A stretch of 45,243 nucleotides of DNA from Arthrobacter sp. H5 (lineage in GTDB: Bacteria > Actinomycetota > Actinomycetes > Actinomycetales > Micrococcaceae): assembly GCF_000520595.1 (NCBI RefSeq), contig NZ_KI915026.1, positions 40,525-85,767 on the forward strand, read 5' to 3'. Positions within the stretch are counted from its first letter, which is position 1; the number at the start of each line of letters is the position of its first letter. This document shows positions 36,194-41,899 of the stretch, in pieces. The notes beneath the pieces were generated by a model. The model saw nothing but the letters and a program-made list of their open reading frames with translations. It was not told the DNA's origin and searched no databases. The translations under genes and the position numbers were made by a program.

Positions 36194-37441
36194 CTACTGC
36201 TCCAGTTTCAGCGCCTTGCGCAGTGTCAATGCCCCGCCGCTCTGCATCACTGCGCGGCGGTAGATTTTCTCGCCCAAGTGCAACAGCGCTACCGCGGCGG
36301 CGAGGGCAATCACCAGTGACAGAAGCGGCTCCCACAATGCCACCGGCGAGTTCAACATCCGAATAGGCATCGCAACCGAGGACACCACCGGCACATAGGA
36401 CGCAACCACCAGCAATTGCCCGGACGCGAAGAGCCCGGCGAACAGTGCAGCGAAAATCAATGCCATCACTGGTGCTGAATTGCTGGTCAGGTCTTCAGGG
36501 CGGCTGGCCAGGGATCCGAGCACCGCCCAGATTGCCGCCAGGATCAGGAAGCCAAAGAGGAAGAACACCATGAACCAGCCGGAGGCGGGAATGATGCTGC
36601 CCACCAGATCTGCGGTGTCCGTGAGGTTGAGCGCAAGCAGCGCGGCCCCGCCGTAGAGTGCCAGTTGGACCATGGCGAGGATGGTATTGCCGAGCACCTT
36701 GCCATAGAGCAATTGCCGGATGGGTATGGCAGTAGCCAGGATTTCCACCACCCGGTTCTGCTTCTCCTCCACTACCGAGTTGGCAATCGCCATGCCAAAG
36801 ATGATGGAGGCCATGTAGAACAGGAAGCTGAAAATGAACCCGGCAATGGTGGCGAGCAGCTGGTTTTCTGCGCTGCCCTCCAGCAGCGACTCCTCCAGCT
36901 CGGAACCCGCGAGCAGGTCCTCACCGGTGGTCCCGGCAGCTGCCGCGTTCTGGTCCAGCACATAGGCGTCCAAGGACTCCCCTACCTGCTGGGCGAGGCC
37001 TGTGGAAACCTCGTTCTTACCGGTGAGCGTCCAGATTCCGTCGGATTCCTGCAGCAGTGCTGCATCCGCGTCCTCGGTACGAACCTGCTCCAGCGCGCCG
37101 TCGTCATCATCCGCCGTGACCGCTGTGAACGTGACGTTGCCGTCGTCGGCCCGGCCTGCCTCGTCGGCCAACTGGATCACCGCCTGCCCAGCATCGGAGG
37201 TGACCATTACGGTGAAGTCCTCGCCGCGGTTGGCCATGAAGGCGTTGAACACCACGCCCGCGACAATCAGCACCAGCGTGATCATTGTGCTGATTGCAAA
37301 GCCGCGGTCCTTAGCCTTGACCAGGACCTCGCGCAATGTGACGATCAGCCATGGCGGCTGGGTGCCGGGTGGCAATGAAACCGGGGACGACGACGGCGCG
37401 CGGCCGTGTGGATCCCTCACACTGGTTTGGGTGCCGCTCAC
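36194..37441 (-). CDS. ABC-2 type permease, NatB-like, 415 aa
   Basis: Membrane subunit of an ABC-2 exporter. One helix near the N-terminus (about 50-70, ISTMITLVLIVAGVVFNAFM) is followed by an extracytoplasmic domain of about 130 residues (70-200), then five or six helices in the C-terminal half (FIFSFLFYMASIIFGMAIAN and others), with the cytoplasmic motif VEEKQNRVVEILATAIPIRQ LLYGK typical of NatB/YhaP-like permeases. The GTG start overlaps the ATPase stop by 4 bp. With the ATPase it probably exports a toxic compound or Na+; the adjacent two-component system is the likely regulator. Confidence 0.88.
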   Translation of the reverse strand: MSGTQTSVRDPHGRAPSSSPVSLPPGTQPPWLIVTLREVLVKAKDRGFAISTMITLVLIVAGVVFNAFMANRGEDFTVMVTSDAGQAVIQLADEAGRADDGNVTFTAVTADDDDGALEQVRTEDADAALLQESDGIWTLTGKNEVSTGLAQQVGESLDAYVLDQNAAAAGTTGEDLLAGSELEESLLEGSAENQLLATIAGFIFSFLFYMASIIFGMAIANSVVEEKQNRVVEILATAIPIRQLLYGKVLGNTILAMVQLALYGGAALLALNLTDTADLVGSIIPASGWFMVFFLFGFLILAAIWAVLGSLASRPEDLTSNSAPVMALIFAALFAGLFASGQLLVVASYVPVVSSVAMPIRMLNSPVALWEPLLSLVIALAAAVALLHLGEKIYRRAVMQSGGALTLRKALKLEQ

Positions 37442-38319
37442 TGTGATACCTCCCGGTAAATTTCGCTCAGGCTGGGCCTGATTCGGCTGAATTCCTGCAC
37501 GCTGCCGCGTGCCATGGCCGCGGCGAGCAGGTGCTGCGCGGCGTCGTCGTTCTCGAGTTCCAGGACCGCTTCCTGGCCTGCCACGTCGATGACCGTCACC
37601 CCTTTTTCCTCCCGCACCCAGCCGGCGTCCGGCGAGACTGACAGCCGGTGGCGGCGCGGGGCCTTTGCCCGGAGATCATCACCGGAGCCCGAGGCAACCA
37701 GCCGCCCTTGCTGCAGCACTACGAGGTTGTCGCACAACCGGTCAACCAGATCCAGCTGATGGCTGGAGAAAAGAACCGGAACCCCCTGGTCCGTGCGGTC
37801 GCGCAGGAGCTCCACCATCGAATCAACGGCCACTGGATCCAAGCCGGAAAAGGGTTCATCAAGAATGAGGACGGACGGACGGTGAAGCAGCGATGCCGCG
37901 ATCTGCACGCGCTGCTGGTTTCCCAGGGACAGCGACTCGAGCTTGTCCTTCCCCCTGCCTCCCAGCTGGAAGCGTTCCAACAGCTCCTCAGCCTGCGCCC
38001 TGGCATCGGAGGCGGTCATTCGGTGCAGCTGGCCCAGGTAGATCAGTTGATCGAGAATGGGCTGCTTCGGGTACAGTCCGCGTTCCTCCGGCATGTAGCC
38101 GAAGGTGGCCCGGTCAGCGGCCGTGATGGGTCGGCCATCCACCAGCACATCACCAGCGTGTGCTGTGAGAACGCCCATGATCATGCGCATGGTGGTGGTC
38201 TTGCCGGCGCCGTTTGCTCCAACAAATCCGGTCATCTTCCCGGACGGGATAGTGAAACTTACGTTGTCAACGGCGGTGTTCTCACCGAACCGCCGAGTGA
38301 GGTTCCGAACCTGCAGCAT
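37438..38319 (-). CDS. ABC transporter ATPase, NatA-like, 293 aa
   Basis: ATP-binding subunit: Walker A GANGAGKTTT near residue 37, the Q-loop region FGYMPEERGLYPKQP, signature LSLGNQQRVQIAASL (LSxGxQQ) near 128, Walker B VLILDEPFSGLDP near 150, and H-loop LFSSHQLDLVDRL. A C-terminal domain after about 220 is typical of the DrrA/NatA group. GGAGGAGCAACCC precedes the ATG. It lies 81 bp after the response regulator gene and is coupled to the permease. Confidence 0.92.
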   Translation of the reverse strand: MLQVRNLTRRFGENTAVDNVSFTIPSGKMTGFVGANGAGKTTTMRMIMGVLTAHAGDVLVDGRPITAADRATFGYMPEERGLYPKQPILDQLIYLGQLHRMTASDARAQAEELLERFQLGGRGKDKLESLSLGNQQRVQIAASLLHRPSVLILDEPFSGLDPVAVDSMVELLRDRTDQGVPVLFSSHQLDLVDRLCDNLVVLQQGRLVASGSGDDLRAKAPRRHRLSVSPDAGWVREEKGVTVIDVAGQEAVLELENDDAAQHLLAAAMARGSVQEFSRIRPSLSEIYREVSQ

Positions 38320-38400: not shown

Positions 38401-39090
38401 TTACTCCCCCGGACGGATGAGCCCGCTCTCGTAAGCAAAAACCACTGCCTGCACCCGGTCCCGGACCTGGATCTTGGCCAGCAGCGATGAAACATGGGAC
38501 TTAACGGTGGCCTCGGCGAGGAAAAGTTTTTGGGCGAGCTCGGCGTTACTCAGTCCGGTGGCCATGCTGGCCAGGACTTCCTTCTCCCGCTGGGTCAGGG
38601 ATTCCAGGAGCTTCTGCAGTTCACCGCTTGGTTGGCTTGTGGGAGCATCCCGGCCTTCGGCGTCGAGCTGCCTGGCGAAACGCTCGATCACCCGGACGGT
38701 CACTTCGGGCGCAAGCAGCGCGTACCCTCCCGCGACGGCCTGCACTGCGGCAATCAGGTCCTCGGGTTCAGCATTCTTCAGCAGAAACCCGCTGGCCCCG
38801 CTGCGGATGGCATCGAAGAGATAATCTTCGCGTTCGAAGGTGGTGAGGATGATGACTTTCCCGCGCCCTGCCCTGGTGATCAGCTCGGTGGCCTTGATGC
38901 CGTCCATTACGGGCATCTGGACGTCCATGAGGATGACATCGACGTCGTGTTCGGCTGCGAACGCCGCTGCTTCCCGGCCGTTCGTTACCTGGCCCACCAC
39001 TTCGATATCGTCTTCAACGGAGAGCATGGTGGCGAAACCGGCACGGACCAGTGCCTGGTCGTCGGCGAGCAGAACGCGGATAATGTCCAT
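38401..39090 (-). CDS. NarL-family response regulator, 229 aa
   Basis: Receiver domain (about 3-120) with LLADDQALVRAGF, the phospho-acceptor in DVILMDVQMPVMDG (about D55), ILTTFEREDY and GFLLKNAEPEDL. The LuxR-type helix-turn-helix (about 160-225) has LTQREKEVLASMATGLSNAE, LAQKLFLAEATVKSHVSSLL. GAGG lies 7 nt before the ATG. It starts 17 bp after the kinase stop. Distinct from the DosR-like regulator: its recognition helix reads ATVKSHVSSLL, not KTIKNYVS. It probably controls the ABC exporter genes downstream. Confidence 0.92.
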   Translation of the reverse strand: MDIIRVLLADDQALVRAGFATMLSVEDDIEVVGQVTNGREAAAFAAEHDVDVILMDVQMPVMDGIKATELITRAGRGKVIILTTFEREDYLFDAIRSGASGFLLKNAEPEDLIAAVQAVAGGYALLAPEVTVRVIERFARQLDAEGRDAPTSQPSGELQKLLESLTQREKEVLASMATGLSNAELAQKLFLAEATVKSHVSSLLAKIQVRDRVQAVVFAYESGLIRPGE

Positions 39091-39107: not shown

Positions 39108-40454
39108 TCAGTGAAGCAGGAACCGGGCACGGACGCGCCAGCCGCCGTCGGACCTGGGCCCAATTTCCGCCGTTCCCCGATGCAGAGCCACGCGTTCGCG
39201 GATACCCTGGAACCCGAACCCGGAGCCGGATTCGGCACGGGGGCGCGGTCTTCCATTGTCCACCGTTTCGAGCTCAACCCAGCGCTGTTCGCCGGAGAGT
39301 CCGGTGCGCAGGGTCATCACGGCGGACCCTGCCGTCGAGTGTCTGCGGATGTTGGTCAGCGATTCCTGCGCCGTCCGGAAAAGGGATAGGGCTAGCGGTG
39401 CGGAGACTTGAGCGAGTGCGCCAGGGACATCCTCCACCCGGTCAAAGCTCACCCTGAGGCCAAGTTCCCGGTGCTGCCTAGCCAATTCCTCCAGGTCGTC
39501 GAGCCCGGGTTCCGGCCTCCGGCCGCCGTCATCCGTTTCGGTCAGCACGCCGGTTTCCGACCGGAGCACGCCCAGCAGGTTGCGCATGTCTGTCACCGCC
39601 TGGCGGCTGGCCTGCTCAATGGTGCGCAGGGATTCAGCAGCGACGTCGGGCCTCTTGTCCATCACCCGGCGGGCAGCGCCGGCCTGAACGCCGATCACCG
39701 ACACGTGATGCGCTACGACGTCGTGCAGTTCGCGGGCAATCCGCAATCGCTCTTCGATGACGGCGCGTCGCGCAAGCTCAGCCGATTGCCGGGCGATCTG
39801 CTCGGACTGCCCGGCGAGTTGAGTGCGCTGGAGGGCGTTACGCCAGGAGGACATGCCAGCGAGGATTGCCCCGCCGAAGTAGGCAAAGTTCACAATGACG
39901 TTGTACAGCGACACCGAAGTCAACGGATCCAGGATCCCGCGGTAGGTTTCGTCGCCTTCCCGGGCCTGTTCCAGCAGACCGTCATAGGTGTTGGCGACCG
40001 TCAAGGCGAGGATGACCCACAGTGCCATGGCCAGCACTACCACTGCGGTTCCCAGCCAGAGCGTCCGCCGGTCCTTGGCCCACGCCACGGCCGAGTACAA
40101 GGATGCGAAGTACGCCGCCTGATAGGAAATCTGCACGGACAACAGCGGGATCCACAGGCTGAGCCCAATGAACAGCGCAGACATCACCAGCATCACAATG
40201 ACCGGATACTTCCGCCGCAGCACCAGCGGCAAAATCATCAGCGCCAGCACCGCGTGCTGTAGCCAGATGGGGCTGTCCTCCTCCGCCATTGAACCAAAAC
40301 CACGGCTAAGTTCCAACGCCAATGCACTGATCAGCAAGAAGATGACAACGCCGATCACGTCCCTGCGCTGCTGGTCCGCGGTGGGTCCGGGCCGCTCCCA
40401 GCGGCTTTCCCCGGCGTCGGGAGTGTGGGATTTCAACCAGACCGGCAGGTTCAC
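39108..40454 (-). CDS. Membrane histidine kinase, HisKA_3 type, 448 aa
   Basis: The N-terminal part (about 30-200) has five or six hydrophobic segments (DVIGVVIFLLISALALELS; AVLALMILPLVL; VIVMLVMSALFIGLSL; YFASLYSAVAW and others) with hardly any extracellular loop, the intramembrane-sensing type. The dimerisation helix has RIARELHDVVAHHVSVIGVQ (phospho-His near 240), and the C-terminal HATPase shows LFRTAQESLTNIRRHS and GSGFGFQGIRERV. It pairs with the response regulator gene 17 bp downstream. The start is GTG 40454, without a clear Shine-Dalgarno; a 14-codon ORF ends on it (GTGA overlap), so translation may be coupled. Confidence 0.88.
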   Translation of the reverse strand: MNLPVWLKSHTPDAGESRWERPGPTADQQRRDVIGVVIFLLISALALELSRGFGSMAEEDSPIWLQHAVLALMILPLVLRRKYPVIVMLVMSALFIGLSLWIPLLSVQISYQAAYFASLYSAVAWAKDRRTLWLGTAVVVLAMALWVILALTVANTYDGLLEQAREGDETYRGILDPLTSVSLYNVIVNFAYFGGAILAGMSSWRNALQRTQLAGQSEQIARQSAELARRAVIEERLRIARELHDVVAHHVSVIGVQAGAARRVMDKRPDVAAESLRTIEQASRQAVTDMRNLLGVLRSETGVLTETDDGGRRPEPGLDDLEELARQHRELGLRVSFDRVEDVPGALAQVSAPLALSLFRTAQESLTNIRRHSTAGSAVMTLRTGLSGEQRWVELETVDNGRPRPRAESGSGFGFQGIRERVALHRGTAEIGPRSDGGWRVRARFLLH

Positions 40455-40495
40455 TGTTGCGGCTCTCGGTGGTGGGGGCGCGCCGGATCAGTCAT
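40451..40495 (-). CDS. Leaderless 14-aa leader ORF overlapping the kinase start
   Basis: Reading on the minus strand, TACACT (40503-40508) is followed 7 nt later by ATG at 40495. The frame MTDPARPHHREPQQ ends in TGA (40451-40453), which overlaps the GTG start of the kinase by 4 nt (GTGA). With no Shine-Dalgarno before the GTG, ribosomes that read this leaderless ORF may reinitiate on the kinase. Two prolines and a His-His-Arg run could make translation sensitive to stalling. Evidence is positional only. Confidence 0.45.
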   Translation of the reverse strand: MTDPARPHHREPQQ

Positions 40496-40588
40496 GGGTG
40501 CCAGTGTAGCCAGCAGGAGGGGTGCGGCGGCTCCCCCGTTTGGCCTAGTTCGAAAGGATGAACCCGGGTTCTGGTGGAAGGCAAGCGG

Positions 40589-41899
40589 TTAGACCGCGGT
40601 GCGCGGAGCTTCGCCCTCGTCACCAAGTCGGCCGGCTTCGCGTTGGCGTAACCTATCCAACGCGCTCATCACGGGAGTCGCGGTTACACCGTGCAGCACC
40701 ACGGACATCGCAACCACGAGACCCACGAAGGCCCATAGTTCATCGGCTTCAGCAGTGAACTCACCATTACTCAAGCCGTATCCAAGGTAATAGAGCGAAC
40801 CGATTCCCCGTACGCCGAAGAATGCCAAGGCAATGCGCTCCCATTTGCCCGTTTTACCACCGGTCAGTCCCAGAAATCCGGTCAACGGTCTAATGAGGAG
40901 GAGGAAGGCCAATGCCACGAGCACCTCGACCCACCCAATGCCAGCCAGCAACCCGCGGGCTATTGCACCGCCCAGAAGAACCAGGATGACCACGGAAAGC
41001 AGGCGTTCGAGCTGCTCAACGTAGCTGTGAAGCACTTTGTGATACCCATGGTTTCTTTCTGCAGCACGGATAGTGGTTCCGCAAACAAAGACGGCCACGA
41101 AGCCATAGCCTTCGAAGGTTTCGGTCAAACCGTAGGCGAGGAACGTTGCTGCCAGCGCTACAAAACCTTCCGAATGGTTTGAGAGCCGCAAGGAATCATA
41201 CTGCGCGGAGAAGAAGAGCCTTCCAAGCAGCTTACCCGTTCCTATCCCCAGCAGTACGCCGATGCCGATGCGCCACAGCACATCAACTGCGAACCATTGA
41301 GGAAACCAATCCGAAGGTGATGCCCCGACGAGGCTGATTCCAATCGCCAAATAGACAAAGGGGAAAGCCAGTCCGTCATTCAGACCGGCTTCGGACGTCA
41401 GACCAAACCGGACCTCATCCTCATCGTTTGCTTCCTCGTCATCGTCAGCGGGCTCTCCAACCTGCACCTCCGAAGCGAGCACCGGGTCTGTGGGTGCCAG
41501 CGCTGCCGCCACCAGAATGGCGCTGGCCAGACCAAGGCCAAGCACGCCGAACCCTAGAAATGCGAGTCCGACGATACACAATGGCATCACGATACTCAGA
41601 AGGCGCCATGTGGTGGCCCAGCGGCGCCATCCAATTCTTCGGTCCAATGCGAGCGCCGCCCCCATCAGCGAAACGATGACGCAGACTTCCGTCAGGTGCG
41701 TTGTGATCTCGCCGTATTCCACGGGGTCCGGGTTGGGCAGGTAGTCGATAAAAGTGAAGGCCAGGACACCTGCTCCGAGGAAGATCATCGGCATTGAGAC
41801 CGGCGCCTTGTGCAGCAGCCTTGGTAGGAGTGCGGCGGCAAACACCACAAGACCCATCACCGTGTAGATGATGCTTGGTCCTTCGAACAGCTCTAGCAC
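40589..41899 (-). CDS. CPA1-family cation/proton antiporter (NhaP-like), 436 aa
   Basis: A 12-13-helix Na+(K+)/H+ antiporter. The catalytic pair is in TSEAGLNDGLAFPFV (Asn-Asp), with further family motifs GVLGLGLASAILVAAALAPT DPVLA and RNHGYHKVLHSYVEQLERLL. A hydrophilic acidic insert (EPADDDEEANDEDEVR) precedes the catalytic helix. The C-terminus is short and lacks a TrkA-C or cNMP regulatory domain. GTG 41899 is preferred (AAAGAGG 4 nt before) over the GTG at 41917. It would export Na+ or K+ in exchange for protons and regulate pH and salt balance. Confidence 0.88.
   Translation of the reverse strand: MLELFEGPSIIYTVMGLVVFAAALLPRLLHKAPVSMPMIFLGAGVLAFTFIDYLPNPDPVEYGEITTHLTEVCVIVSLMGAALALDRRIGWRRWATTWRLLSIVMPLCIVGLAFLGFGVLGLGLASAILVAAALAPTDPVLASEVQVGEPADDDEEANDEDEVRFGLTSEAGLNDGLAFPFVYLAIGISLVGASPSDWFPQWFAVDVLWRIGIGVLLGIGTGKLLGRLFFSAQYDSLRLSNHSEGFVALAATFLAYGLTETFEGYGFVAVFVCGTTIRAAERNHGYHKVLHSYVEQLERLLSVVILVLLGGAIARGLLAGIGWVEVLVALAFLLLIRPLTGFLGLTGGKTGKWERIALAFFGVRGIGSLYYLGYGLSNGEFTAEADELWAFVGLVVAMSVVLHGVTATPVMSALDRLRQREAGRLGDEGEAPRTAV

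Follow-up and report, generated by a model that had tools for sequence, protein, structure and literature searches.

A predicted leaderless 14-codon frame before an Arthrobacter sensor kinase gene probably descends from the kinase's own start

Hundreds of leaderless small open reading frames (ORFs) have been proposed for mycobacteria, where those coupled to the next gene through an RTGA stop/start tetramer are over-represented, according to the sections of Shell 2015 (PMC4633059) on which we draw. In a published example from the same sections it is the linkage rather than the peptide that is conserved, a feature that is found only sometimes and is not required of every member of the class. A second close parallel is termination-reinitiation coupling, in which, as far as the consulted part of a recent review goes (PMC12548453), a short upstream ORF (uORF) could supply a weakly initiated downstream gene with ribosomes. 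Both the purpose and the origin of the mycobacterial leaderless small ORFs are mostly unclear. The kinase gene analyzed here speaks to both: its relatives provide a natural series in one orthologous operon whose -10 region is conserved, comprising an in-frame leaderless start, a split mini-ORF with RTGA, and a Shine-Dalgarno start. The series makes the birth of such mini-ORFs, and the question whether they drive the next gene, directly testable in Arthrobacter-group soil bacteria.

The arrangement lies on the minus strand of a 45,243-nt stretch of Arthrobacter sp. H5 DNA (hereafter the window). A TACACT hexamer is followed after 7 nt (ggcaccc) by an ATG (40495-40493) that opens 14 sense codons and runs to a TGA (40453-40451) overlapping the kinase GTG (40454-40452), exactly to the base as the original prediction had laid it out (Table 1). 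No second match to the general pattern (TANNNT, 6-8 nt, ATG or GTG, 4-40 codons, and a stop overlapping or at most 4 nt from the start of an ORF of at least 100 aa) is present in the window, so that the arrangement is unique within these 45 kb; with GTGA held fixed, the ATG version occurs in 183 of 60,000 random 140-nt upstream sequences (0.3%). Pairing with the anti-Shine-Dalgarno sequence before the window's GTG amounts to -4.4 kcal/mol, contributed by GAGAG (40467-40463) only, and is near the median of -3.3 for 3,000 random 17-mers of the window (5% at -8.8). The proposal that the kinase has no Shine-Dalgarno sequence of its own thus holds for the window, with a weak motif at the same place in four relatives.

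Table 1. Coordinates and conservation of the features discussed in the text (positions are those of the window)
Feature	Position	Strand	Conservation
Imperfect dyad TCATCC-N5-AACTAG, 53 bp upstream of the -10 box	40545..40561	-	conserved in the genus
Predicted -10 box TACACT	40503..40508	-	TA[CA]ACT in 12/13 loci of the genus; TA[GA]ACT in 29/29 g53 loci
Predicted leaderless ORF, 14 codons including the ATG, plus stop (peptide MTDPARPHHREPQQ); predicted transcript 5' end 40495	40451..40495	-	14 codons and offset of 41 nt in 5/5 clade members
GAGAG, where four relatives carry GAAGG (weak Shine-Dalgarno)	40463..40467	-	
GTGA stop/start overlap (RTGA tetramer)	40451..40454	-	5/5 clade members
Sensor histidine kinase, 448 aa, HisKA_3 and HATPase_c	39108..40454	-	
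NarL/LuxR-type response regulator	38401..39090	-	adjoins the kinase in 31/31 loci listed
ABC transporter ATPase, DrrA-like C-terminal domain	37438..38319	-	
ABC-2 type permease	36194..37441	-	

We found the kinase in 13 of 38 genomes of the window's genus, a count of what was found, as some of the other genomes are incomplete assemblies. The 13 consist of 12 matches of at least 77% identity, the window's included, together with genome G358; a DNA search matched 14 of the 38, from which the 29-base match in G015 was left out of the count, and locus L052, taken as the same genome as L031 on account of a 200-nt stretch in common, was dropped from both tree and counts. Five loci (L001, L002, L003, L005 and L031) are identical in the layout of -10 box, 7-nt spacing, ATG, 14 codons and GTGA. 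Seven others (L004 and L007-L012) retain TACACT, have no ATG at the predicted 5' end and carry a GGAGG-type Shine-Dalgarno sequence (GGAAGG in L011), while L006, which is without the promoter block, was counted apart from both groups. The five uORF genomes form one clade of the kinase tree (99/96) and the other eight its sister clade (95/83), and because all five fall within one clade, the difference between uORF and Shine-Dalgarno sequence represents a single evolutionary contrast. Anti-Shine-Dalgarno pairing ranges from -4.3 to -8.6 in the uORF group versus -8.1 to -13.3 in the non-uORF group, with a slight overlap (-8.6 versus -8.1). GAAGG is located 8 nt before the GTG in four of the five uORF genomes, and independent initiation is consequently possible in these four relatives. 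In L004 and L007-L010, five of the seven loci of the Shine-Dalgarno group, a strong GGAGG(G) lies 14-15 nt before the putative start ATG, a spacing longer than usual.

None of the 13 loci in the window's genus has a leaderless start in frame with the kinase. Outside the genus such a start is present in 38 of 62 loci, namely in 27 of 29 from genus g53 of the same family, in 7 of 28 from the remaining genera of that family (8 of 28 when the upstream span is set to 200 rather than 160 nt) and in 4 of 5 from other families. The kinase occurs in all 29 g53 genomes, each of which carries TA[GA]ACT-N6/7-ATG. In the 27 in-frame cases the offset between this ATG and the kinase is a multiple of 3 and takes 11 values between 33 and 93 nt; since a frame kept through 11 offset values is not expected by chance, the ATG is best taken as the kinase start, and the g53 kinase is predicted to be leaderless. 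Among 25 further loci, of which 24 belong to four other families of the order and one to the same family, 21 have a leaderless in-frame start. Shuffled upstream sequences give 0.2 of 25 by chance and, for the 29 g53 loci, 0.3 of 29.

The start of the 14-codon frame corresponds to this leaderless kinase start of related genera. Both precede the same gene and follow the same -10 box at the same spacing, and the start motif ATG-AT-N-GA is common to g53 and the uORF clade: codon 2 begins with AT in 28 of 29 g53 loci and 4 of 5 clade members, and codon 3 with GA in 29 of 29 and 5 of 5 (GAT). They differ in reading frame, which the ATG shares with the kinase in those genera but not in the window. 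The original prediction of a leaderless start at 40495 is supported by this correspondence and by the conserved -10 box before the ATG, and the uORF has very probably arisen from the kinase's own leaderless start. The leaderless kinase start is itself probably the ancestral state. Because 21 of the 28 family loci outside g1 and g53 (g44, g45, g46, g32, g26 and part of g27, with kinases mostly below 50% identity) are without such a start, and these include L094 (g26, about 60% identical), closest of these to g1 plus g53 in the tree, this ancestry rests on g53, on part of g27 and on the other families. Despite these family loci, an ancestral leaderless start followed by frame loss is the simplest history: an ancestrally leaderless kinase would have lost its frame in the window's genus, with one clade keeping the old ATG at the head of a 14-codon ORF and, in the sister clade, the ATG lost and a Shine-Dalgarno sequence present, listed here with no order of steps implied.

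What has been maintained since then seems not to be the peptide sequence. Across the five genomes the uORF varies in 8, 7 and 7 of 13 columns at codon positions 1, 2 and 3, and dN/dS is 0.77 in the uORF frame versus 1.05 and 0.82 in the other two frames. The kinase sequence after the GTG has a clear third-position bias (5, 6 and 10 of 11 columns variable), which begins at the GTG. There is no conserved run of codons in the uORF among the five genomes, and only the window has the His-His codons. These codon-position counts and missing codon runs led us to reject a sensing peptide, the part of the original prediction in which a leader peptide tunes kinase synthesis to translation status. As an attenuator, the frame would report translation or amino-acid status by ribosome stalling or speed within its 14 codons; its length and position would suit a leader peptide, and cysteine-rich leaderless small ORFs before cysteine genes are proposed attenuators in mycobacteria in the consulted sections of PMC4633059. 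Besides the absence of a shared codon run, we detected no terminator-like site in 40300-40700, no covarying alternative structure, and no Rfam match at gathering score in 40200-40800, making this reading very unlikely. A riboswitch or other structured leader was also rejected, as two Rfam matches (E 0.13 and 0.19) are below the gathering score and outside the leader, and the consensus fold of the leader, with a covariation term of +0.64, gives no support. Since the pairing around the GTG shows no covariation, the version of coupling in which translation of the uORF unfolds the kinase start is likewise unsupported; accessibility of the GTG, which varies from 0.00 to 0.46 between species and is without a null model, was not used.

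The features kept in all five genomes are instead an ATG at a fixed distance from the -10 box, a gap-free 41 nt and the GTGA overlap. Neutral simulations along the kinase tree let the ATG survive in all five genomes with p of about 0.04 when run at the divergence of the leader and 0.002 when run at that of the kinase third positions, which provides moderate evidence for retention of the uORF ATG. The openness of the 13 codons that follow is weak evidence, because of the GC content and because about half of the simulations at the leader's divergence keep the frame open. The stop is not independent evidence either, since the A of TGA is the first base of kinase codon 2 (Asn/Ser) and is partly fixed.

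These observations bear directly on the possibility that the frame is an inert relic of the old kinase start and that the GTG is initiated alone from the same mRNA, with a weak Shine-Dalgarno sequence or independently of one. Such a relic would explain a peptide free of any sign of selection and the GAAGG before the GTG in four of the five genomes, and it would agree with the pervasive translation of short ORFs in M. tuberculosis, mostly without purifying selection, as reported in the consulted part of PMC9094748. It fits less well with a 14-codon length and a GTGA overlap that are exact in five of five genomes at a divergence of 0.32 per site, and with the survival of the ATG against the neutral expectation. 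The window's near-random Shine-Dalgarno energy argues against it as well, as does the sister clade, which is without the ATG and mostly has the stronger Shine-Dalgarno sequence. We consider an inert relic rather unlikely.

With moderate confidence we favor the reading that the kinase ancestrally started, leaderless, at the ATG of the 14-codon frame, that this start was later cut off from the kinase frame, and that it persists as a site where ribosomes load before passing to the kinase by termination-reinitiation. The TACACT box would start the mRNA at A40495, and ribosomes would bind its 5'-terminal AUG directly; after translating the 14 codons they would terminate at the UGA, and kinase synthesis would follow by reinitiation at the GUG that overlaps it. 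The likely effect would be a kinase dose set by leaderless initiation multiplied by the efficiency of reinitiation. We infer three of these steps, namely where exactly the 5' end lies, that the short frame is translated, and that reinitiation is the chief route to the kinase; on balance, termination-reinitiation is somewhat favored as the main source of the kinase. From the original prediction, then, the leaderless start, the conserved short frame (14 codons and the same spacing throughout the clade) and the coupling to the kinase GTG find support in the comparison with relatives, and the sensing leader peptide does not.

Two further routes to the kinase would dispense with reinitiation. Ribosomes entering at the leaderless ATG might instead undergo a -1 shift before the TGA and produce an N-terminally extended kinase; the kinase frame is open for at least 11 codons upstream of the GTG in all five genomes, and g53 kinases carry such extensions. 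No conserved slippery heptamer was recognized by eye before the stop in the five sequences, however, and the g53 extension, which varies from 33 to 93 nt, looks dispensable, so that a frameshift fusion is scarcely credible. The other route places the 5' end near 40454, making the kinase itself leaderless at its GTG, or leaves the kinase to be expressed solely by read-through from the antiporter gene upstream. The stretch between antiporter and kinase shows no terminator-like site, but of 31 loci, each with about 1.5 kb of flank, the window's alone has the antiporter upstream, whereas the promoter is conserved; and TANNNT is absent 5-9 nt before the GTG in all five genomes, which renders improbable the 5' end near 40454 that the original prediction had named as its refuting alternative. 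Taken together, a leaderless GTG or expression by read-through alone is extremely unlikely.

By its predicted features, the 14-codon frame is a member of the mycobacterial 'coupled' RTGA class of leaderless small ORFs as set out in the consulted sections of Shell 2015 (PMC4633059). Its 14 codons lie within the range of 5-50 directly before a larger ORF, the GTGA overlap is present in five of five genomes, and the linkage is conserved and the peptide is not. An RTG at the transcription start is predicted from a -10 box at 7 nt in all five genomes and from homology to the leaderless kinase start. Unlike the members of the class in those sections, the frame belongs to another actinobacterial group and is known here from sequence alone. 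What it adds to the class is a traceable origin, the start of the mini-ORF apparently being the downstream gene's own former leaderless start; no such origin appears in the consulted sections of PMC4633059. Our literature search, which gives weak support to an absence, returned no description of leaderless mini-ORFs that originate when a leaderless gene is split. Compared with termination-reinitiation coupling as treated in the consulted part of PMC12548453, the frame could similarly supply a weak start with ribosomes, but these would load in leaderless fashion, at the 5' end of the mRNA, rather than by a Shine-Dalgarno sequence.

A second, seemingly independent version of the arrangement occurs at the g53 locus L048 (G339). 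In the assembly of this one genome, the -10/start region, some 35-70 nt before the kinase core, carries a 20-nt tandem duplication, and the result is a leaderless ORF of 7 codons with a TGA that overlaps the ATG of the kinase (ATGA). It lends support to a more general route, on which our opinion is evenly divided, whereby leaderless mini-ORFs coupled by RTGA arise by splitting leaderless genes, an event that would have occurred at least twice in this kinase gene: through a frame change in the window's clade and through the duplication in L048. In this route the promoter would fix the 5' AUG as the site of ribosome entry, and an indel that breaks the frame could persist only where the stop it creates is overlapped by a new start (RTGA), which would trap the old start as a mini-ORF. 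At another g53 locus, L071 (G359), the leaderless ATG is one base out of the kinase frame (offset 50), and the sequence before the kinase core offers no usable start in frame, a situation that reflects either a real frame break or an error of sequencing or assembly; given the possible sequencing error, L071 was not counted as a further split case.

A sigma-70 scan of the kinase upstream region found no consensus promoter with a -35 box, and the predicted -10 assignment is based on its conservation and on a TCATCC-type element farther upstream. In 11 of the 13 genus loci this element (TGGTCC in L009 and L010) sits 52-53 bp before the -10 box, and it is present in 18 of 29 g53 loci, at 38-39 bp (17) or 53 bp (1). 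The window's pattern has one exact match in the 4.3-Mb genome. A TCATCC regulon is not claimed, with 15 sites in the genome itself at up to one mismatch versus 47 for the reversed control. The element is a possible site for the LuxR-type response regulator and perhaps an activator site, and autoregulation by the cognate regulator would be a guess. Because the listed NCBIfam matches for kinase and regulator are all below their cut-offs, a name for the two-component system was dropped. The gene order kinase-regulator-ABC is conserved in all 31 loci listed. At L006 (G034), the promoter block of its close relative L008 is missing upstream of the kinase, which directly follows sequence resembling the upstream gene of L008, as if by a short deletion.
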